From positions 1 through 64,000 of the forward strand of contig NZ_JAGQCE010000006.1 of the NCBI RefSeq assembly GCF_024345995.1: DNA of 64,000 nucleotides. Reading direction: 5' to 3'. A program made the position numbers and the translations under genes. This document shows positions 20,185 through 29,882 of this stretch, in pieces. The notes under the pieces were generated by a model that was not told the origin of the DNA, did no database searches, and saw only the letters and a list, made by a program, of their open reading frames with translations. Positions within the stretch are counted from its first letter, which is position 1. Every line of letters starts with the position of its first letter. This stretch comes from Synechococcus sp. Cruz-7E5. GTDB taxonomy: Bacteria; Cyanobacteriota; Cyanobacteriia; PCC-6307; Cyanobiaceae.

Positions 20185-21621
20185 TCACTGCAACGAAAAA
20201 GTTGGCAGAAAGTTCGCAACGGTGCAGAGTTCAATATCTATGGCTCCAACATCGGTGAAATCCTGATTCGTCTCTCTTGTTCGCTCAATGAATCGAGCCG
20301 TTCTATCCCGCTGCTTTGTCAACCTCAGCAAGCGGTCAGTCCAGTGAGCTCGGGGCAGGTCAGGCGTGAGGCCCTGAAGGCCAAGGAACCAGGGAATGAG
20401 TGAACTGATGAGCTCAAGCGAACCAGACGATCGACGCGGGAATGAAGGCATGGAAATTCTGATCGACCGAATAAAGTCATGCTGCGACTCGGTGAGCAGC
20501 AGAGGCTCGACCAACCTAATAAGATCTACTCCAGTTGCACTCAAAGCCGCAAGAAAACGAACAGGATGACTACTGTATGAATCGATGCAATTAGATGGCT
20601 GTATACTTTTCAAGAGAATGCATTGTCGCATCTTCTCAATGTCAGTGCGGCCAAGCGAATAGTCATTGTGGCAATCATACCAGCGGCCTCGCTCATACCG
20701 AACTGGGCAGAGATACATTGGATTCACCAACTCAGAAGCAGCAGCATGATCGCCACAAATCACTGGCACCCCCGCAAAGCTTGCCTCAACAAGAACCCGG
20801 CCAAGGGTCTCCAGATTGGAGGTGCTTGGGAAGAGGAGCACATCGATCTGAGCCAGAAAGTCCCAGATCTCACCGTGAGCGCAAGCAGGGAAATAGCGAA
20901 ACACATCGGAAAAACCAAGAGCCTCTTCCAACGTTCGAGCAACCAACCGTGGATGACAACTGGGCGAATGGACATGCCCGCAGGCAAAGAGCCGAAAGCG
21001 ACGGCCGATCGATGACGGAGACGTTGCATGGAGCTCAATCAGCAACCGAATGAGATCCGGAAAGTTCTTGTCTTCCGAAATGCGCCCAAGATAACCAAGA
21101 GTAAGATCTGATTCTGGCCTTATTGTGTGCTGCCGCCAAACACTCTGGCGCTCCGGGAAACAGGCCGACAATGGATAGCACAATAGCGTGGGGTATAATG
21201 CAGTTCTTGGGAAAAGCGCCTCATAGACACCACGAGCATAAAAACTAGAAACCAGAAGAGTATCATCACTTCTCAGCAAAGAATGGCAGAGATACTCCTG
21301 GAATAGATAGCTACTCCACAGAGCCGTGCGCACATCCCTGATAATACGAAATGCAAGCCGGAAGCGCTCCCGCAGATAAAAATAATAATGGGCATGAGGC
21401 CCCACATTGCTAACTACGCAATCAGTGCTGCCTAATATCTCAATTGCATAGGAGTCATCGGCAAGCAGCCTGTTAAAATCATGAAAACGAACATCCAAGC
21501 CAGTGCCTGGCCGATGCTTCAACAGCCAGGCAATGCTCTCGTGAGCCAGATTGACGCCATCACGCTGGGAAAGTGCTGGGTCGGTGTGGTAGTCATGAAG
21601 GGTAATTCTGATGGTTTTCAG
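20185..21621 (-). CDS. GT4-type glycosyltransferase with a probable CTG start
   Basis: 478 aa if read from CTG 21621; a TTG at 21522 gives 445 aa. The CTG is preferred because it overlaps the upstream TGA as CTGA, and the extra residues (KTIRITLHDYHTDPALSQRD) look like a genuine glycosyltransferase N-terminus. No ATG, GTG or TTG occurs earlier in the frame. The C-lobe has LTLGYLGRISEDKNFPDLIR and the nucleotide-sugar site LLFPSTSNLETLGRVLVEAS followed by FAGVPVICGDHAAASELV. GC content is clearly lower than the neighbouring core genes, suggesting transfer. It is the last gene of the minus-strand cluster behind uvrB, and its acceptor may be the product made by the upstream CphA-like proteins. 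Confidence 0.8.
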   Translation of the reverse strand: MKTIRITLHDYHTDPALSQRDGVNLAHESIAWLLKHRPGTGLDVRFHDFNRLLADDSYAIEILGSTDCVVSNVGPHAHYYFYLRERFRLAFRIIRDVRTALWSSYLFQEYLCHSLLRSDDTLLVSSFYARGVYEALFPRTALYPTLLCYPLSACFPERQSVWRQHTIRPESDLTLGYLGRISEDKNFPDLIRLLIELHATSPSSIGRRFRLFACGHVHSPSCHPRLVARTLEEALGFSDVFRYFPACAHGEIWDFLAQIDVLLFPSTSNLETLGRVLVEASFAGVPVICGDHAAASELVNPMYLCPVRYERGRWYDCHNDYSLGRTDIEKMRQCILLKSIQPSNCIDSYSSHPVRFLAALSATGVDLIRLVEPLLLTESQHDFIRSIRISMPSFPRRSSGSLELISSLIPWFLGLQGLTPDLPRAHWTDRLLRLTKQRDRTARFIERTRETNQDFTDVGAIDIELCTVANFLPTFSLQ

Positions 21622-23231
21622 ATCAAACTCTCCCCATCCATATTCTCATCCAATGGCAGACCTGCCAAAGTCAGAATCGTTGCCGGCACATCCTCAAGTC
21701 GACCAGATCGCAGGGAGGTGCCCGGCTGAATGGCCGGACCAAGAACTAAAAGAAGACTACTGACCTCCGTGCCATGCATCACATGCCCGCCTGAGCGGAA
21801 GAAGGGAAGAGGCCCGATCCGTCCAAACTCCTCGCACTCCAATGCATCGGCCGGAGGACCTGACTCACTCCATCGCACGACCAGATCGGGCGGCACATCA
21901 GGCCTTTGCAATGGCGTGTCACGCATGATCAGCGCATCATGAACCAAGGGCCGACCCGTGCGTGGGTTGACACAACCCAACAGCAGGTTACGCAACTCCA
22001 ACAGTATGTGACCAAACTCCGCCGGATTGATGAGGCCATGGGCTTCCCGCCCACACACGTTCAGACGCACATAGCCATCGGACACGCTGGGGAGCGCGAA
22101 GGCGCGCATCCGGGGCCAGAGATTCTTATACCAGTTGGCCGGATTCCAACTGAGCGGATCTGCCTCAGCTTCCTGCTCAAACGGGCTGGCGATCCGAGCC
22201 TTTGCTGCCTCCGCAACGGTTGTCCAGACCTCGGCCTTCCAGTGCTTGGCGTAGTCCAAGCGCGGGGAGGGGAGCGGCGATCCGGCCGAGAAGACTGATC
22301 CAATCGCCTGCTGACCAGGGAAAGCCCAGCGATAGAGCAGCTCAGGCAGAAGAGCCATGGTTGGCACATCCATCCGATTGGAAACCGTATGGTCAATGGT
22401 ATAGACAACAAATGATGCCTTTCGATCGGCCAACGCATGCAGCTTGGCGATAGAGCTGTCGATTTCACGATAGATCTCCCCGAAAGTCGAGCTGCCCTTG
22501 TCAGAATCAGGGCCAAGGGGATGGTCATGGCACAAGTGCCAGAGCATATGGTTGGCTGTATGGCATTCTGAGTAAAGCGCAAGGAAGAGATCCCAGCGAT
22601 CTGCTTGCAGAAGGTCCGCACAGATCGCCGTACGACGGCGGATCGATTCAAGCAGTTGCCTCTTCAAACGCAGCAGGTCCTGCTCGACGTAAAGACTGGG
22701 AAGCGGAACTGAGCGCTCCGCCAGACCTGAGATCGGATCAATCACCGACTGGAGGCCATCCTCGAATCGAGGATTTAGTCCATGCATGGCCTCAAGCTTC
22801 GCCAACAGCCCCTCGGGCTGGCTCATGGGTGCGCAGGCATTGAGCTCACTACCCCAGCCGGTGATTTGAACGCCATTGAGCCGACGAGCGATCGGTGCCG
22901 GCAGATCGAACACACAGATGTGGTTAGAAAGGTAACCGGAATAGAACAGAGGTGTTGAACCAAGTTTTTGATGTACAGACAGATTGGCATAGCAATATGT
23001 TTCGGCATCGAAGCTGGATCCTGGATTCTGCAAAGACTGGCCAGAAAGGAAAACATCCCAACAGGATTCGTTGCGAAACAGTTTGGTGTGCGTGCATGTG
23101 CCGATCGCGCCTTGCTCGCGCATCCTGGCCAGAAAGGGGAGATCTCCATCATCCATTGCAGCCAGAAGCAGATCGGCATTCGGAGCATCGATTCCCAGTG
23201 CAATGACCGGGTGATTTCCTGTAACCGCCAT
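21618..23231 (-). CDS. Alkaline phosphatase superfamily (type I phosphodiesterase-like) protein
   Basis: 537 aa from ATG 23231; the open frame upstream overlaps the previous gene and looks non-coding. The start VIALGIDAPNADLLLAAM resembles the metal-binding GIDG(A)-type opening of the nucleotide pyrophosphatase/phosphodiesterase group. The nucleophile region would be TKLFRNESCWDVFLSGQS, then SECHTANHMLWHLCHDH (metal His/Asp), VVYTIDHTVSNRMDV in place of the common SDHG, and a late SGGHVMHG histidine motif. It could hydrolyse or transfer a phosphate, phosphonate or sulfate ester. It sits 34 bp behind the CphA-like ATP-grasp gene and its stop overlaps the GT start. Function in this setting is unknown. 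Confidence 0.78.
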   Translation of the reverse strand: MAVTGNHPVIALGIDAPNADLLLAAMDDGDLPFLARMREQGAIGTCTHTKLFRNESCWDVFLSGQSLQNPGSSFDAETYCYANLSVHQKLGSTPLFYSGYLSNHICVFDLPAPIARRLNGVQITGWGSELNACAPMSQPEGLLAKLEAMHGLNPRFEDGLQSVIDPISGLAERSVPLPSLYVEQDLLRLKRQLLESIRRRTAICADLLQADRWDLFLALYSECHTANHMLWHLCHDHPLGPDSDKGSSTFGEIYREIDSSIAKLHALADRKASFVVYTIDHTVSNRMDVPTMALLPELLYRWAFPGQQAIGSVFSAGSPLPSPRLDYAKHWKAEVWTTVAEAAKARIASPFEQEAEADPLSWNPANWYKNLWPRMRAFALPSVSDGYVRLNVCGREAHGLINPAEFGHILLELRNLLLGCVNPRTGRPLVHDALIMRDTPLQRPDVPPDLVVRWSESGPPADALECEEFGRIGPLPFFRSGGHVMHGTEVSSLLLVLGPAIQPGTSLRSGRLEDVPATILTLAGLPLDENMDGESLI

Positions 23232-23265
23232 TGAACCGCAGCAATCGGATGGTTGAGGAGAAAGG

Positions 23266-25146
23266 CTAGGCTGGGGTGATCCTTGCACTATCACGGCTGC
23301 GCAGAACCTCAACGTGGGGCTTGATCAGCTGCAGGAGCCGTCTGACGGTGTCGCTCTCCTCCGCCGCCGATCCAAGCAGGGTGCCCGTGGTCAATCCAGC
23401 AGCCGGAAGGCCGCGCTGCAGAATTTCAGTAACGCTCATCACAATCAGGCCTGATCTCAAGACCTGATCATGAATCATGACCTGAGCGGCAGAGAAGCCG
23501 TTGGAAGGCTGACAAGCCAACAACTTTCCATCAATCCATACACCATCCGCAGTTGCCAGCCCATTGCAGTTCAGACGCTTCGCTAACAGATGGGCTTGCC
23601 CATGCAGGACTCCAGACTCCATTCCTTCAGGGACAACCAGAAGATGCAGCTCAACAGGACCTGCAGCCTGAACCATTGACGCCATGATTTCATGATAGAT
23701 CATGGGAGTGTCACGAATACCGATCTGAGGTTGTGCGTTCACTTCGCAGATGACGCCACCACAGCATTTCCAAGACGCTTTAATGTCGGGAATGATCAGA
23801 TCAACCCCTGCGATATCAAGACGGAAGATTCGTACAACCTGAAGAGCGAGGTCCAGATTATCAGGGTGGACCTGCTCATGGTGGACCAAGACATGGGAGC
23901 CACCGGCTGAAATGTTGGCTTTTCCACGCAGACGCACAACACGGCCAGCCTCTGGAATCGAATCGGAATTCAGACCCTGGTAGCCCAGATGCATAAGCGC
24001 CTCAGCATCGAGCTCGAGGCGCATCTTTCCTGACATTCGCAAGATCTTCTGATTCCTCTCCGTTGACTGCTCCCTGGCAACGAGCTCGGCAACGGTCATC
24101 CTGTCATCGCCAACCACTCCACCTGGAACTCGGTGCATGATCTTGACGACACGACCATGAGCCACCGTAAAGCGATAGTCATCTCCAATGATAAACTTCT
24201 CAACGAGAATTTTGCTTGATAACTTTGCTGCTTCACGATATGCCATCCCAACGGATTGAGCATCCCTCAATCCAGCAAAGACCCCACGGCCCTGCTCCTG
24301 GTCCGCTGGCTTGATCACCACTGGAAAACCCAGATCGCCAGCCAGTCGAATGGCCTCTTCCTCTGAGCGGCAAACCCTGTGGGTGGGTGCCGGTAGCCCA
24401 TGGTGCTTAAGGAACATGGCTGTCCGCTCCTTGTCCTTGGCCAGAGCCACGGACATGAAGGGCGCATGATCCGTCAGTGAACTGTCGATCCAGCGCGTCG
24501 AGACACCATGACCAATTGCCATGATGTTGCTGTCGATCCGGGTGGCTGGCAGGGCGAGATCGTGGGCTGCCTTTGCAAAATAAAAGTTGTTGGTCCCCTT
24601 CAGGCCGAAGGCACTCAGGTGGCTGATCAACTGATCCCTGCTCCGGCGAATCTCATCTCCGCGATTGCTCACGGCGGCAGGAGATCGCGCAAAGGCATTG
24701 ATCAGGGATTCCAGCCAGCGCAGAGTGTCGACAGAAGCCCTTGGAAAGGAGTAAGGAAGGATGAGATCATGGACCTCCATGGGGCCATCCCTGCTTTCGG
24801 ACCTTGCAAGAGTCGAATGACAGGGAGCAAAGACGGGAAGATTGGCCCGCTGCTGAAGCTCAAGATGGGTCGTCAGAAGCACATCGAGCAGATTCAGCGA
24901 AAGGGACTCGCACCGCTCGTGCTCAGGACTGGAGACAGGCTCAACGATGCTGCAGAGAAAGTCTGTGACTTGATCCGCTTCCTCTGGAAGGTGGCGGCGG
25001 ATCTCGATCCTCGCTTTGAGGATCGGCTGACAGATGCCGAATCCCATGCCTTGATAGGCCCGGAACTGGCTAGAAAAACGAACCAGGGGCACTTTGTCGT
25101 CTGGTGGCTGAGATCGATTGAACTGTTCGGCTGTAGGGAGCGACAC
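23266..25146 (-). CDS. Cyanophycin-synthetase-like ATP-grasp protein without a visible Mur ligase P-loop
   Basis: 626 aa. Residues about 195-490 match the ATP-grasp half of cyanophycin synthetase: TRIDSNIMAIGHGVSTRWI, SSLTDHAPFMSVALAKDKERT, FPVVIKPADQEQGRGVF, ILVEKFIIGDDYRF, LRGKANISAGGSHVLVHHE, DIAGVDLIIPDI and GGVICEVNAQPQIGIRD. These supply ATP- and metal-binding Lys, Asp, Glu and Asn residues. The last 130 residues show no GxxGKT/S loop, so the second ligase site of CphA1 seems absent, as in CphA2-type proteins. The first 190 residues are unassigned. It follows the full-length CphA-like gene with a 3 bp gap. GC is lower than in core genes. It probably forms an amide bond using ATP; substrate unknown. 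Confidence 0.82.
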   Translation of the reverse strand: MSLPTAEQFNRSQPPDDKVPLVRFSSQFRAYQGMGFGICQPILKARIEIRRHLPEEADQVTDFLCSIVEPVSSPEHERCESLSLNLLDVLLTTHLELQQRANLPVFAPCHSTLARSESRDGPMEVHDLILPYSFPRASVDTLRWLESLINAFARSPAAVSNRGDEIRRSRDQLISHLSAFGLKGTNNFYFAKAAHDLALPATRIDSNIMAIGHGVSTRWIDSSLTDHAPFMSVALAKDKERTAMFLKHHGLPAPTHRVCRSEEEAIRLAGDLGFPVVIKPADQEQGRGVFAGLRDAQSVGMAYREAAKLSSKILVEKFIIGDDYRFTVAHGRVVKIMHRVPGGVVGDDRMTVAELVAREQSTERNQKILRMSGKMRLELDAEALMHLGYQGLNSDSIPEAGRVVRLRGKANISAGGSHVLVHHEQVHPDNLDLALQVVRIFRLDIAGVDLIIPDIKASWKCCGGVICEVNAQPQIGIRDTPMIYHEIMASMVQAAGPVELHLLVVPEGMESGVLHGQAHLLAKRLNCNGLATADGVWIDGKLLACQPSNGFSAAQVMIHDQVLRSGLIVMSVTEILQRGLPAAGLTTGTLLGSAAEESDTVRRLLQLIKPHVEVLRSRDSARITPA

Positions 25147-25149
25147 GTC

Positions 25150-27735
25150 TCAGGCCTCCAGGTGGCTCGACCTTCCGATGGGTTCCGTACGGAGTGACTC
25201 CAGAATGATGGTCTTGGCCGTATGGACCTCAAGGGCATGGACCAGAACGGCATCACCAGGAGCAGCTTCATCAAGGAACGCGGGAATGGCTGCATGGACC
25301 TCGCCGACATAGCGGAGGTCCACGGTCGGATCGGCAGCGCGGCCAGCCGCGAGAACCATGGCAGCGACCTCATCCTCGACACGCCCAGCAAGCTTTTCGC
25401 CTCGGGCGATCCGGACCACGTCGAACAGACGGCAGGCTTCCGCTGCCATGCTGCACAGCCAGCGATCGGGGGCACTGAAGCCCACCCGAAGCAGGATACG
25501 AGTTCGGGAATTCTGCGCTGATCGGAGCGACTCCAGCAGCACCGCCAAAGCCTGGAGCGCCTCAGGCGACCCCGCCCAACTCAGCAGAACGGATCTCGAC
25601 GCCGCCTCGATCCTTTCGGCCCGGCCTGGATTGAGACTGGCATCAAAGCCAAGAATCTGCTCCCGGATCAGATCCGGAGCCACACCCATCCGCTCGGCCA
25701 TCACCGCCACGAATGCCGCTGAGATCACGGTCCCACGACACAGGCCTCCCCAGGCTGCTCGAATGTCGGCGGCCGGGATCATGCAGAGCTGGGTATCACC
25801 GCGACAAAGCACCACCACACCATCCGGCCCATCACTCCACAAAGCCGCCAGTCCTCCGGCCGCGAGATGGTCGAGGAGCAGCCCATGGGGCGGCATGGAG
25901 CCGACCAGGCAATGCTCACAGGCGGCCTGGCGGTCGTAGACCCCCCGCAACAGGGGATCGTCAGCATTGAGTACCAGGGCACGGGTGGCGGCGCGGGCCA
26001 CCAGAGACTTGATCTGGAGCAAATCCTCCCGCGACGACACACCGTCCTCACCGAGGTGGGCGTCAAGGATGTTGAGAATCGCGCCGACATCGGCCTCGAA
26101 CAACCGCAACCCACCCTTGAGCAATCCTCCTCGGGACACTTCACCCACCACGGCCTCGACGCGAGGATCCTGGAGAAACCGGCGGATGGTGCCGCCATGG
26201 GCTGAATCCTCCTGGTTGACGATCAGATCATCCAGTTGAGAACCCGAGGTGGAGCCGAAGGCCACCCGTCGCCGGGTGCCGCGCATCACATGGGCCAGCA
26301 TGCGGGTAGTGGTGGTCTTGCCGATGCTGCCTGTCACCAGAGCTGTCGGGATTCGTGCCGCCTCCGGCCCTCCGGTCCAGCGGAGAACCAACCTGCGGCA
26401 GAGATCCGAACTTGGATCTGCCACCAGATGGGGGCGGAGGCCCGGTGAGAGGTTGGCTTCGAGGACTCGAAGCCCCCCCTCGGTCCAGGACCTGCCGACA
26501 TCCAAGGCCATAACGTCAAGGCCAAGGACATCCGTGCCAAGCAGGGAGGCGACATCCAGAGCAAGACGACGGTTGTCAGCGTGGAGCCGATCCGTCACGT
26601 CCGTGGCCCCACCCCCCTGAGAGATGTTGGCGGTGCGGGAGAGTTGTACCCGCCGGCCAGCAGTGGGAACGGACGCCAGGGTCAGTCCCTGCCGCGCCAG
26701 TTCCGCCTCCAGACGTTCATCCAGGGGAATCCGGTTCATCAATCGCTCATAGGCCACACCGCGCCGGGGATCGTCATTGACGGACCTGATCAGTTCATCC
26801 AGGCAACGGAGCCCATCCCCACAGACTTCAGCGGGATGACGGCGGGCTACTGCCATGACCTCGCCGTCACAGATCAGGAGACGATGATCATGGCCAGGCA
26901 ACACCTCTTGCACCAGTTGGGTCGATCCGTCACCTGCATTGACCTGCCAGGCCCGCTCGAGTGCGTCACGTTGATCCAACCCAACCCAGACGCCCTTGCC
27001 CTTGCCCCCCTCGGCCGGCTTGAGCACAACCGGCCAGCCGAGCTCATCAGCCGCCTTCATGGCTTGATTCCTCGTGCGGGCGATCCGTTGCCGGGGGAGG
27101 GGAAAACCATGACCAGCAAGGACTTGATGCAAGGCTTCCTTGCCGTGGAACAGCTTGGAGAACAGACTGGTGCGGTCGGTCAGGGTTTCATGCAGCAGGC
27201 GCCGCCGCGCACCATGTCCGAGTTGAAGGAACTGCTGGCCGGCCCTTTCGATGCGGAAAAAGGGCACACCAACAGCACAAGCGGCTCGTGCCAAATGGGC
27301 ATGGGTCTGATTCCAGCGACGGCTGTGGAAAGCACGGCAGAGCTCGACATCCTCCGACGACGGACTGGTGCCACGGAAGGCGCCGTCGAACCAGCGGCAG
27401 AGGAACTGGCCAGCCAATCCTGCCCCAGGGCCATCATCGATGGGCAGCCAGAGCCTGAGCTCCGTTGCCGTCGCCGTCAGAATCCGTGATTCAGCCGGCT
27501 CTAGCCGGCAGGGCTCGGTCAGCGCCATCAGCAGCCGCGACATCACGACGGGCAGAGCCCCCCGGAGATCGACGCCGGCCAACACCGACAGGAACGGAAA
27601 GCCCTGGATCCAGTGGAACAGGGCTTCGGGCTTGGGCGAAGCGTTTCCCGGGAGATCAACGAAGTGGAGGACAGCACCGCTGGTGGGACCCATCAGATTG
27701 AGACCCTCAAGCAACTGGCAGCCGCACACTCTCAC
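25150..27735 (-). CDS. Divergent full-length cyanophycin-synthetase-like protein (ATP-grasp plus Mur ligase)
   Basis: 861 aa from GTG 27735, 1 bp after the uvrB stop. The start MRVCGCQLLEGLNLMGP parallels CphA. Residues 160-190 carry the QLGHGARRRLLHETLTDRTS motif. The ATP-grasp core (about 198-455) has WPVVLKPAEGGKGKGVWVGL, RTANISQGGG and RVLEANLSPGLRPH. From about 463 a Mur ligase domain begins: ALVTGSIGKTTTTRMLAHVM (variant of TGTNGKTTT), GEVSRGGLLKGGLR, AILNILDAHLGEDG and ALVLNADDPLLRG. CphA1 builds multi-L-arginyl-poly-L-aspartate with these two sites. This protein is divergent and paired with a second ATP-grasp protein, so its polymer may not be cyanophycin. Residues binding Asp and Arg cannot be judged here. 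Confidence 0.85.
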   Translation of the reverse strand: MRVCGCQLLEGLNLMGPTSGAVLHFVDLPGNASPKPEALFHWIQGFPFLSVLAGVDLRGALPVVMSRLLMALTEPCRLEPAESRILTATATELRLWLPIDDGPGAGLAGQFLCRWFDGAFRGTSPSSEDVELCRAFHSRRWNQTHAHLARAACAVGVPFFRIERAGQQFLQLGHGARRRLLHETLTDRTSLFSKLFHGKEALHQVLAGHGFPLPRQRIARTRNQAMKAADELGWPVVLKPAEGGKGKGVWVGLDQRDALERAWQVNAGDGSTQLVQEVLPGHDHRLLICDGEVMAVARRHPAEVCGDGLRCLDELIRSVNDDPRRGVAYERLMNRIPLDERLEAELARQGLTLASVPTAGRRVQLSRTANISQGGGATDVTDRLHADNRRLALDVASLLGTDVLGLDVMALDVGRSWTEGGLRVLEANLSPGLRPHLVADPSSDLCRRLVLRWTGGPEAARIPTALVTGSIGKTTTTRMLAHVMRGTRRRVAFGSTSGSQLDDLIVNQEDSAHGGTIRRFLQDPRVEAVVGEVSRGGLLKGGLRLFEADVGAILNILDAHLGEDGVSSREDLLQIKSLVARAATRALVLNADDPLLRGVYDRQAACEHCLVGSMPPHGLLLDHLAAGGLAALWSDGPDGVVVLCRGDTQLCMIPAADIRAAWGGLCRGTVISAAFVAVMAERMGVAPDLIREQILGFDASLNPGRAERIEAASRSVLLSWAGSPEALQALAVLLESLRSAQNSRTRILLRVGFSAPDRWLCSMAAEACRLFDVVRIARGEKLAGRVEDEVAAMVLAAGRAADPTVDLRYVGEVHAAIPAFLDEAAPGDAVLVHALEVHTAKTIILESLRTEPIGRSSHLEA

Positions 27736-27736
27736 C

Positions 27737-29743
27737 TCATGCCCTCCCCACCAGCTTCTGACGCAGCTTCTTGATGCGATCGCGCAGGTTGGCAGCTTCT
27801 TCGAACTCCAGGTTCCTGGCGGCTGCTTTCATCTTGTCCTCCAGCTCCAGGATCAGCTCAGGCAGCGCATCGAGGGGCACCATCGCGAACGAGGCCTGCT
27901 CAGCCTCGGGTTGTGGCCCATCATCCTGAGCTCGTCTGGACACTTCCAGGAAGCTGAGGATGGCATTGCCAGCGCGCTTGCCTGCCGGGCTGGGGGTGAT
28001 GCCGTGGGTCTCGTTATAGGTCTGCTGGATAGCCCGGCGCCGTTCGGTTTCGGAGATGGCACGGGCCATCGAGTCGGTGAGGTTATCGGCATAGAGGAGT
28101 GCCATCCCGTCCACATGACGGGCCGCCCGACCGATGGTCTGGATCAAGGAGCGCTCCGCCCGCAGGAATCCCTCCTTGTCGGCATCAAGAATCGCCACCA
28201 GGGACACCTCCGGCAGATCCAGTCCTTCCCGCAGCAGATTCACCCCCACCAGGGCATCAAAGTCGCCGTTGCGCAGATCCTGGATGATTTCGATCCGCTC
28301 GATCGAATGGATCTCCGAGTGCAGATAGCGCACCCGGACGCCATTTTCAGCCAGGTAATCGGTTAGGTCTTCGGCCATTCGTTTGGTGAGAGTGGTGATC
28401 AGCGTGCGCTCATCCCGCTCCGCCCGCAGCCGGATTTCACCGAGCAGGTCATCCACCTGGCCCTCGGTGGGGCGCACCTCCACCACCGGATCGAGCACAC
28501 CGGTGGGGCGGATCACCTGCTGGGTCACATGGCCGTGGCTCTGCTCGATTTCCCACGTCCCTGGCGTAGCTGACACGAAGATGGTCTGGCGGGCCTTCGA
28601 CCAGAACTCCTCGGCCTTGAGCGGACGGTTGTCGGCGGCACTGGGCAGCCGGAACCCATGCTCCACCAGCACCTGCTTGCGGGCCTGGTCGCCGTTGTAC
28701 ATCGCATGGAGCTGGGAGCAGGTGACGTGGCTCTCATCCACCACCAGCAACCAGTCGTCGGGGAAATAGTCGATCAGGCACTCGGGCGGTGTACCGGCCT
28801 GGCGGCCCGCCAGGTGGCGGGCGTAGTTCTCGACGCCATTGCAATAGCCCACCTGCTGCAACATTTCCAGGTCGTAGGTGGTGCGCTGCTCCAGCCGCTG
28901 GGCCTCCAGCAGGCGGCCTTGGCCCTGAAGGTGCTCCAGGCGCTGGTGCAGTTCCTCGCGGATCGCCGCGATCGCTGAATCGAGCCTGTCCTTGGGGGTG
29001 ACGAAGTGCTTGGCAGGATAGATATTTATAGTTTCCAAACTCTGCAGGATTTCGCCGGTGGTCGGATCGACATAGCGAATCGCCTCCACTTCATCGCCAA
29101 AGAGTTCGATGCGCACCAGCCGGTCTTCGTAGGCGGGGCCGATCTCGAGCACATCCCCCTTCACCCGGAAGCGGCCACGCCCGACTTCGATGTCGTTGCG
29201 GGAATACTGGTTGTTCACCAGCTCGCGCAGGGAACCGCGCAGGTTAAGAGGCTCACCCACCTGAAAGCGCACCGCAGCCTTGAGATATTCCGAGGGAATA
29301 CCGAGGCCGTAGATGCAACTGATCGAAGCCACAACGATTACATCCTGGCGCTCGAACAACGAGCGGGTGGCGGAGTGCCGCAGCATGTCGATCTCTTCGT
29401 TGATCGAAGCCGTTTTGGCGATGTAGGTATCTGAGACCGGAACATAGGCCTCCGGCTGGTAGTAGTCGTAGTAGGAGATGAAATATTCGACAGCGTTGTT
29501 AGGGAAGAACTCCCGCAACTCATTGCAGAGCTGGGCCGCGAGAGTCTTGTTGTGGGCCAGCACCAGAGCCGGACGACCGGTGCGGGCAATCACGTTGGCA
29601 ATGGTGAAAGTCTTGCCGGTGCCCGTGGCACCCAGCAGGGTCTGGTATCGCTCACCCCCATCAACACCGTCCACCAGGGCTTCGATGGCCGTTGGTTGGT
29701 CGCCCTTGGGCTCGTAGGGAGCCTGGAGCTCAAAGCGCGCCAT
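27737..29743 (-). CDS. uvrB: Excinuclease ABC subunit B
   Basis: 668 aa from ATG 29743, near the 673 aa of the E. coli protein; the open frame upstream is unlike UvrB. Visible features: [20 protein letters not shown], Walker [17 protein letters not shown], the beta-hairpin [12 protein letters not shown], the [14 protein letters not shown] Walker B box, the helicase C-lobe ending [14 protein letters not shown], and the C-terminal UvrC-contact helix [29 protein letters not shown]. UvrB loads onto damaged DNA with UvrA and recruits UvrC in nucleotide excision repair. The CphA-like gene starts one base after its stop, so the unusual cluster is probably transcribed from the uvrB promoter, at least in part. 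Confidence 0.96.
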
Positions 29744-29882
29744 GGCCGCTGGTTCCAGGTGGCCCCTGGATAAAGACAAAATTGATCCTAGGAATAAGCC
29801 CCTACTTGTGCCCGCCTGCAACACGGTCGGCTAACCGCATCAACCTCGGCAAACAACCAGCTGCGGCAGGCCCTCAGATCAC

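Follow-up and report, generated by a model that had tools for sequence, protein, structure and literature searches.

The gene set

The stretch analysed here (the window) comprises 64,000 nucleotides of Synechococcus sp. Cruz-7E5, the genome of which (G000) measures 3.16 Mb. Between uvrB and a convergent sugar-transferase gene, the window holds a set of four minus-strand genes that encode two ligases related to cyanophycin synthetase (CphA), a protein of the alkaline-phosphatase (AP) superfamily and a glycosyltransferase. An earlier account made from the letters alone (the sequence-only reading) had taken this set to direct the synthesis of a non-standard, glycosylated amide product. We confirm that the gene set exists and is conserved; its grouping, M-domain residues and genomic context set it apart from the cyanophycin system. 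The features considered are:

25150-27735, minus strand: CphA*, a divergent cyanophycin-synthetase-like ligase of 861 aa with a GTG start and N, G and M regions; RimK-type ATP-grasp and Mur_ligase_M matches
23266-25146, minus strand: the partner ligase, a CphA2-like ATP-grasp protein of 626 aa, A-type; ATP-grasp match and no Mur_ligase_M match
21618-23231, minus strand: the AP-superfamily protein, 537 aa, with Asn at the inferred nucleophile position; Pfam Phosphodiest match below cut-off
20185-21621, minus strand: a GT4-type glycosyltransferase, 478 aa, with a probable CTG start; Glycos_transf_1 match
27737-29824, minus strand: uvrB, a neighbouring housekeeping gene that precedes CphA* by 1 nt in the same orientation and probably does not belong to the pathway

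With revised starts for the AP and GT4 genes, the spacings are 3 nt between CphA* and the partner ligase, 34 nt between the partner ligase and the AP gene and -4 nt between the AP and GT4 genes, as the sequence-only reading had given them. The AP start is an ATG that is conserved in Cyanobium sp. CZS48M (G007), where all four genes are found in the same place as in the window. The GT4 gene probably starts at the CTG at 21621, within a CTGA overlap with the AP stop codon, because the frame is conserved between the window and G007 upstream of the listed TTG; GGGGAG precedes this candidate start in both. The protein identities of the four genes between the window and G007 are 82, 75, 72 and 74%, with dN/dS (the ratio of non-synonymous to synonymous substitution rates) of about 0.16-0.23, indicating purifying selection, and these values argue that the four genes are not chance open reading frames (ORFs). 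The uvrB protein is 96% identical between the two genomes.

In the window, GC content at third codon positions (GC3) is 0.51 for GT4, 0.60 for AP, 0.59 for the partner ligase and 0.70 for CphA*. The first three lie below the range of the 26 other window ORFs (0.67-0.87), and we read them as acquired DNA. The corresponding values in G007 are 0.53, 0.54, 0.63 and 0.71, as compared to 0.79 for uvrB.

Phylogenetic position of the two ligases

Three trees of the ligase G domain were calculated, namely a first tree, a second with proteobacterial rows and a third to which eight annotated non-cyanobacterial CphA1 were added. Rows L076, L104, L116 and two of L120, all with long branches, were removed before the second and third trees. 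Eight cyanobacterial CphA1 rows were also removed for the third, such that its 21 CphA1 comprise 13 cyanobacterial sequences and eight from other phyla, six of these eight having an annotated cyanophycinase within the fetched flanks. In all three trees, CphA* is a single clade of eight rows and the five CphA2 are another (100/100 each); in the first two, the 21 cyanobacterial CphA1 also cluster together (99/95 and 100/99). CphA1 and the five CphA2 group together without CphA* in the second tree (99/96), and the 21 CphA1 and five CphA2 of the third tree likewise cluster to the exclusion of CphA* (98/98). When referring to this grouping, it should be considered that three CphA-like rows labelled CphA1, from Ruegeria and Novosphingobium, also fall outside the CphA1 and CphA2 group, and that a tree forcing all 24 CphA1-labelled rows together is not rejected (approximately unbiased (AU) test, p 0.063).

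The partner ligase also falls outside the CphA1 and CphA2 groups in the three trees, so that the tree check proposed in the sequence-only reading leaves both ligases outside the sampled groups. A-type ligases (those of the window, G007, G112, Allochromatium palmeri and three from Novosphingobium) group at 98/97 in the second tree and 99/98 in the third, and B-type ligases (four cyanobacterial and one from A. palmeri) at 97/88 and 99/90, respectively. The two types, proteobacterial rows included, are sister groups (99/95 and 100/94).

Active-site residues

Cyanophycin-synthetase models cover residues 144-846 of CphA*, and its best solved-structure matches are all named cyanophycin synthase. Against the CphA1 model TIGR02068, CphA* scores 472.1 bits, where the curated cut-off is 850 and a control CphA1 (L106) reaches 1041.4. 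With 861 aa and both ATP-grasp and Mur_ligase_M matches, the earlier description of a full-length, divergent cyanophycin-synthetase-like protein holds.

We aligned eight CphA* rows with 29 CphA1 (21 cyanobacterial and eight annotated from other phyla), taking the roles of active-site residues from passages of PMC9427784 and PMC9262961. The G-domain aspartate-site residues R309, R323, N394, S396 and R458 are retained in all eight CphA*, as are K499, T500 and H586 of the M domain. Three M-domain positions that are constant in 29/29 CphA1 are changed: N497 is replaced by I, V or L in 8/8, D585 by N (6) or A (2), and the lid His by D (5) or G (2), with one gap. Position E215, which touches the Arg side chain of the polymer according to passages in the same two papers, is K in two, R in three and Q in three CphA*; among the eight annotated non-cyanobacterial CphA1, it is E in four and D, G, T and N in one each. 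H267 is K in all eight CphA* and also in 5/5 CphA2. Adding the eight CphA1 thus made the tree and the M-domain argument stronger, and E215 and H267 count for less than before. The N-domain zinc motif HxxEH, the primer-making site, is missing in 8/8 CphA*; the full Cx19HxxEH is present in 19/21 cyanobacterial CphA1 and HxxEH in six of the eight annotated CphA1 of other phyla, and the part of PMC9262961 that deals with this site gives the full motif in 83% of CphA1. Judging by these residues, CphA* probably still adds aspartate, and we infer for its M domain either a different amine substrate or a loss of activity.

The partner ligase, for which PRK14016 is the best NCBIfam model, is a second ATP-grasp protein of the same family, as had been noticed from the letters, and a search of its own genome returns just the partner ligase itself and CphA*. 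Partner ligases keep R309, R323 and N394. R458 is lost, being G in 7/7 A-type and A or S in 5/5 B-type ligases. The window protein lacks the Mur P-loop, with M/E at K499/T500. A CEVNAQPQ stretch is constant in seven aligned cyanobacterial A- and B-type ligases.

The AP-superfamily protein and the glycosyltransferase

The GT4 assignment is confirmed by a Glycos_transf_1 score of 51.5 bits (cut-off 26.4). For the AP protein, the earlier assignment is less certain. The window protein reaches 21.6 bits with Phosphodiest, slightly under the cut-off of 23, and gives no match to solved structures at E 1, whereas a Novosphingobium homologue, 35% identical to it over 537 positions, scores 51.5 bits. 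In an AP tree in which this homologue is the sole proteobacterial row, it clusters with the three type-A APs (98/99), and 16 further cyanobacterial APs fall elsewhere. The nucleophile position was assigned from a Thr/Ser motif that we take to apply here; it holds Asn in 3/3 type-A proteins, Thr in Novosphingobium, and Thr, Ala or Val elsewhere. The AP gene is present at 65% identity or more in 3/400 genomes of the family, plus four weak matches, and members of the AP family are found near glycosyltransferase, O-antigen-ligase (Wzy) or flippase genes at three loci in other cyanobacteria.

Distribution and genomic context

The sample for distribution was these 400 family genomes, 251 of which have a completeness of 90% or more and a contamination of 5% or less; the best two candidates per genome were scored in the CphA* search and the best three with the partner-ligase profile. 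CphA* matches at E 1e-30 occur in 12/400 genomes. Seven of these have a CphA* that is at least 44% identical across a stretch reaching from residue 8 to 680 or beyond, and a remnant is left in G112, while the match in G063 is a true CphA1 and those in G030, G176 and G188 are ligases of other groups. The partner-ligase profile (A2) scores 887-956 bits in seven family genomes, the next match in the 400 being 270 bits; the G395 partner ligase is a contig-edge fragment of 204 positions (248 bits), 66.5% identical to that of G370. Because the ligases of seven of its eight top-scoring genomes went into A2, this search indicates that there is no further near relative in the 400 and should not be taken as independent discovery. 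CphA* and the partner ligase occur in the same 8/400 genomes, one CphA* being the remnant (hypergeometric 6.6e-17, with kinship ignored). Among 291 genomes drawn from the class, nothing besides the window scored above 291 bits, and the matches listed were mostly CphA1-sized frames. Within one genus code, 2/42 genomes pass E 1e-90.

The eight genomes fall into two types. In type A (G000, G007 and G112), the partner ligase is found with AP and GT4. In type B (G002, which is Synechococcus sp. 1G10, G031, G284, G370 and G395), where CphA* shares 43-49% identity, the set consists of the partner ligase, a 164-180-aa orphan (called in 3/5), a cytochrome P450 and a TauD-family oxygenase, the last being a 150-aa piece in G284; CphA* directly follows this set in G284, G370 and G395. 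In G112, which belongs to a different genus code of this family, the ligase, AP and GT4 are 66-67% identical to those of the window; their surroundings differ and include five genes of transposase or integrase type, and the ligase is present in 1/4 genomes of that genus code. The broken CphA* of G112 (L097:12357-13538) is fused to a stretch matching BREX BrxC domain 4, and IS481-, rve-, Mu- and IS110-type transposase genes surround it. The co-occurrence of the four families, for which the sequence-only reading had proposed a check, is seen in part: neighbours are conserved with the ligases elsewhere, yet the full four are found in G007, CphA* is broken in G112 and P450 and TauD genes stand in place of AP and GT4 in five genomes.

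Outside cyanobacteria, we searched five proteobacterial genomes chosen for holding a CphA-like gene, the scan across organisms having used two peptide patterns. Two of the five, A. palmeri and the Novosphingobium metagenome-assembled genome HKST-UBA127, hold A- or B-type ligases; two Ruegeria genomes and a Rhodocyclaceae genome gave weaker ligase matches alone (at most 333 bits, in frames of at least 828 aa). The A. palmeri CphA* is 66% identical to the 1G10 copy and 43% to that of the window. A B-type ligase is accompanied in this genome by P450 and a 164-like frame, and the CphA* contig (L202) carries an A-type ligase with adjoining HpcH-like and GT2 genes. In Novosphingobium, an A-type ligase, a GT2 and an AP form an operon with overlaps of 8 and 4 nt (L204). 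A second A-type ligase (L205) lies near a PMT_2-like gene (25.6 bits, cut-off 26.1), with GT2 genes further off, one of which carries a polysaccharide pyruvyl transferase domain, and a third (L206) is near a contig end. The ligase trees and the AP tree place the window ligase and AP with members of a single Novosphingobium operon. Two further ORFs of L204, 9411-9818 and 12024-13292, appear to be artefacts of reading GC-rich DNA in the wrong frame.

No cyanophycinase match (TIGR02069) was found in the eight CphA* genomes, of which G370 and G395 are just 85 and 64% complete, in agreement with the earlier remark that the set is not paired with cyanophycinase. Of 18 genomes searched, one (G063) has a match, immediately upstream of a CphA1 scoring 1041 bits. 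In the portion of Sharon and Schmeing (PMC10206079) that covers this point, cyanophycinase is given for 98.7% of 79 cyanobacterial CphA1 genomes, and the two genes are clustered in 81% of genomes holding both.

Several other ligases were seen alongside. CphA2-like picocyanobacterial ligases at L071:6651-9361, L075:1272-3997, L101:7863-10495 and L102:7744-10412, which the trees place in ligase groups of their own, have methyltransferase-like genes overlapping or next to them (on a Pfam basis for L071 and for the L070 homologue of the L101/L102 gene, the rest by homology). In G188, a CphA2-like ligase (L105:7469-11127) follows a gene for a flavin adenine dinucleotide (FAD)-dependent oxidoreductase (Pyr_redox_3 and Lys_Orn_oxgnase models). 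CphA-like genes in two Ruegeria species (L114:13794-15122 and L115:14025-15353) fall outside the CphA1 group and lie about 1.4 kb from a capsule assembly Wzi gene.

Interpretation and alternatives

The explanation that we favour, although tentatively and at a little below an even chance, is that the window carries a horizontally acquired operon for a glycosylated, aspartate-based amide (isopeptide) product, either a polymer or a small molecule, other than cyanophycin. The gene set, its conservation, the Novosphingobium grouping, the residue changes and the lack of a cyanophycinase match are read from sequence; from them we infer all substrates and the order of steps. The CphA* G domain would extend a growing chain at its C-terminus by aspartate or a closely similar compound, and its M domain, if active, would join the side-chain carboxylate to an amine that is not arginine. 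The partner ligase would form a further amide bond, its altered carboxylate site probably accepting a larger acceptor, as in CphA2. GT4 would attach a sugar, and the AP protein would act on a phosphorylated or sugar-phosphate intermediate or, as the usual Thr nucleophile is apparently replaced, may be a binding or scaffold protein. The non-standard glycosylated amide product of the sequence-only reading thus gains from the ligases being set apart and from the recurrence of a glycosyltransferase near the ligase in Novosphingobium and Allochromatium, while the idea of a single fixed pathway does not agree with G112 and type B. More speculatively, and with somewhat less confidence, the set may belong to a pathway family common to picocyanobacteria and proteobacteria, in which a conserved ligase pair is combined with exchangeable tailoring modules (glycosyltransferase and AP, or P450 and TauD-type oxygenase) to yield an unrecorded class of aspartyl isopeptides or poly-amino acids that carry sugars or are oxidised. 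We found no account of an operon of this kind with these ligases in the open-access PubMed Central (PMC) literature searched. Cyanophycin synthetases have so far been studied as makers of one storage polymer; if the explanation is true, this enzyme type has been reused for other amide products, offering new ligase specificities for biopolymer work, and the two-ligase pairing provides a concrete, testable gene set.

A number of points weigh against the operon explanation and need to be considered. On the genomic side, the GC3 of CphA* is inside the range of the other window ORFs, so this gene is not clearly foreign, and no exporter or precursor gene is found among the four. G112 retains ligase, AP and GT4 but just residues 630-856 of CphA*, CphA* and the partner ligase are at separate loci in G002 and G031, and, against a single fixed pathway, the partner ligase accompanies P450 and TauD genes rather than AP and GT4 in five other CphA* genomes, none of these five family genomes having an AP match. 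The link between AP and glycosyltransferase is weak by itself, since the AP family adjoins glycosyltransferase and polysaccharide genes elsewhere too, and the usual Thr nucleophile of AP appears to be replaced by Asn. As to the trees, the first unites the seven cyanobacterial A- and B-type ligases (96/87), yet this exact group was later rejected (AU p 0.0013) because the added proteobacterial rows fall inside it, and the position of CphA* beside two other picocyanobacterial ligases is weakly supported (94/59 in the second tree and 90/74 in the third). Regarding chemistry, a change at E215 or H267 alone is no argument against cyanophycin, as E215 varies among the annotated non-cyanobacterial CphA1 and K at 267 is shared with 5/5 CphA2. 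The CphA* M domain could be inactive, given that D585 is changed and that mutation of D585 together with H586 inactivates CphA1 in experiments found in PMC9262961. The AlphaFold models are of low confidence (pLDDT 31.1 for AP and 51.8 for CphA*). Finally, the corresponding figure in PMC10206079 for cyanophycinase in beta-proteobacterial CphA1 genomes is 2.8%, and its absence is hence telling just by the cyanobacterial norm.

Of the alternatives, the one that survives best, although we consider it unlikely, is that a glycan, or its lipid- or phosphate-linked precursor, receives amino acids from the ligases to give an amide-decorated surface polysaccharide, with GT4 and AP making the glycan. The A-type ligases that adjoin glycosyltransferase genes in Novosphingobium (L204, L205) and A. 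palmeri (L202), the AP homologues near Wzy, flippase and glycosyltransferase genes, and the polyprenyl glycosylphosphotransferase gene next door in the window and G007 all speak for it. This last gene, however, has no match in the G112 locus, CphA* retains its aspartate-site residues, and type-B relatives combine the same ligases with P450 and TauD genes.

We give somewhat less credit still to the possibility that AP and GT4 are polysaccharide-locus passengers which merely share one mobile cassette with the ligase pair. Low GC3 in GT4, AP and the partner ligase would fit such a cassette, as would the transposase- and integrase-type genes of G112 and the position of AP near glycosyltransferase genes elsewhere. 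It fits poorly with the Novosphingobium ligase, GT2 and AP, which overlap as one operon and of which the ligase and AP group with those of the window, with the persistence of AP and GT4 beside the ligase in G112 despite the broken CphA*, and with the 4-nt overlap of AP and GT4, if the CTG start is right.

It is very improbable, in our view, that the set is a fast-evolving cyanophycin system in which CphA* is a CphA1, the partner a CphA2 and the product cyanophycin, or a form of it that contains a different basic amino acid. The domain order, the retained Asp-site residues and the names of the solved-structure matches agree with it, as do the CphA2-like loss of R458 and Mur P-loop in the partner, K at 267 in CphA2 and the variability of E215 among annotated CphA1. 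Both ligases nonetheless fall outside the CphA1 and CphA2 group, CphA* scores under the curated cut-off, M-domain positions constant in 29/29 CphA1 are changed and 0/8 genomes have a cyanophycinase match. An ordinary cyanophycin locus was rejected on the trees, the residues and the lack of that match. A graspetide or other ribosomally synthesised and post-translationally modified peptide (RiPP) locus would find no space for a precursor gene between the four genes, and the four window proteins gave no PADLOC match at 0.01 as an anti-phage system.

Comparison with known systems

CphA1 (TIGR02068) shares with CphA* the N-G-M order, the ATP-grasp, the Mur P-loop Lys and the aspartate-site residues. 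CphA* differs in its separate clade, its 472 as compared to 850 bits, the missing HxxEH, the changed N497, D585 and lid Asp/His, and the lack of a cyanophycinase match. CphA2, which polymerises beta-Asp-Arg dipeptides according to a passage of PMC9262961, resembles the partner ligase in lacking R458 and the Mur P-loop, whereas the partner ligase is set apart by its separate group, its CEVNAQPQ stretch and its different operon partners.

The CapB/CapA poly-gamma-glutamate system, as outlined in part of PMC11915815, shares a Mur-type amide ligase, although the window set has no CapA-like gene and has an AP-superfamily gene instead. CapA-like genes were met elsewhere. In Synechococcus sp. 1G10, a PGA_cap gene (L070:15086-16156) shares its first base with the end of the CphA* stop codon and scores 60 bits with the model of the lasso-peptide epimerase MslH (cut-off 700); a 544-aa ORF beside it looks like a wrong-frame artefact in GC-rich DNA. 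On a Microvirga ossetica plasmid (NZ_CP016620.1:355185-356186), a gene annotated as CapA-family spans a CphA-like ATP-grasp match. Haloarchaeal glutaminylglycan, presented in that part of PMC11915815 as poly-gamma-glutamate bearing oligosaccharides, resembles the proposed product in the concept of a glycosylated poly-amino acid.

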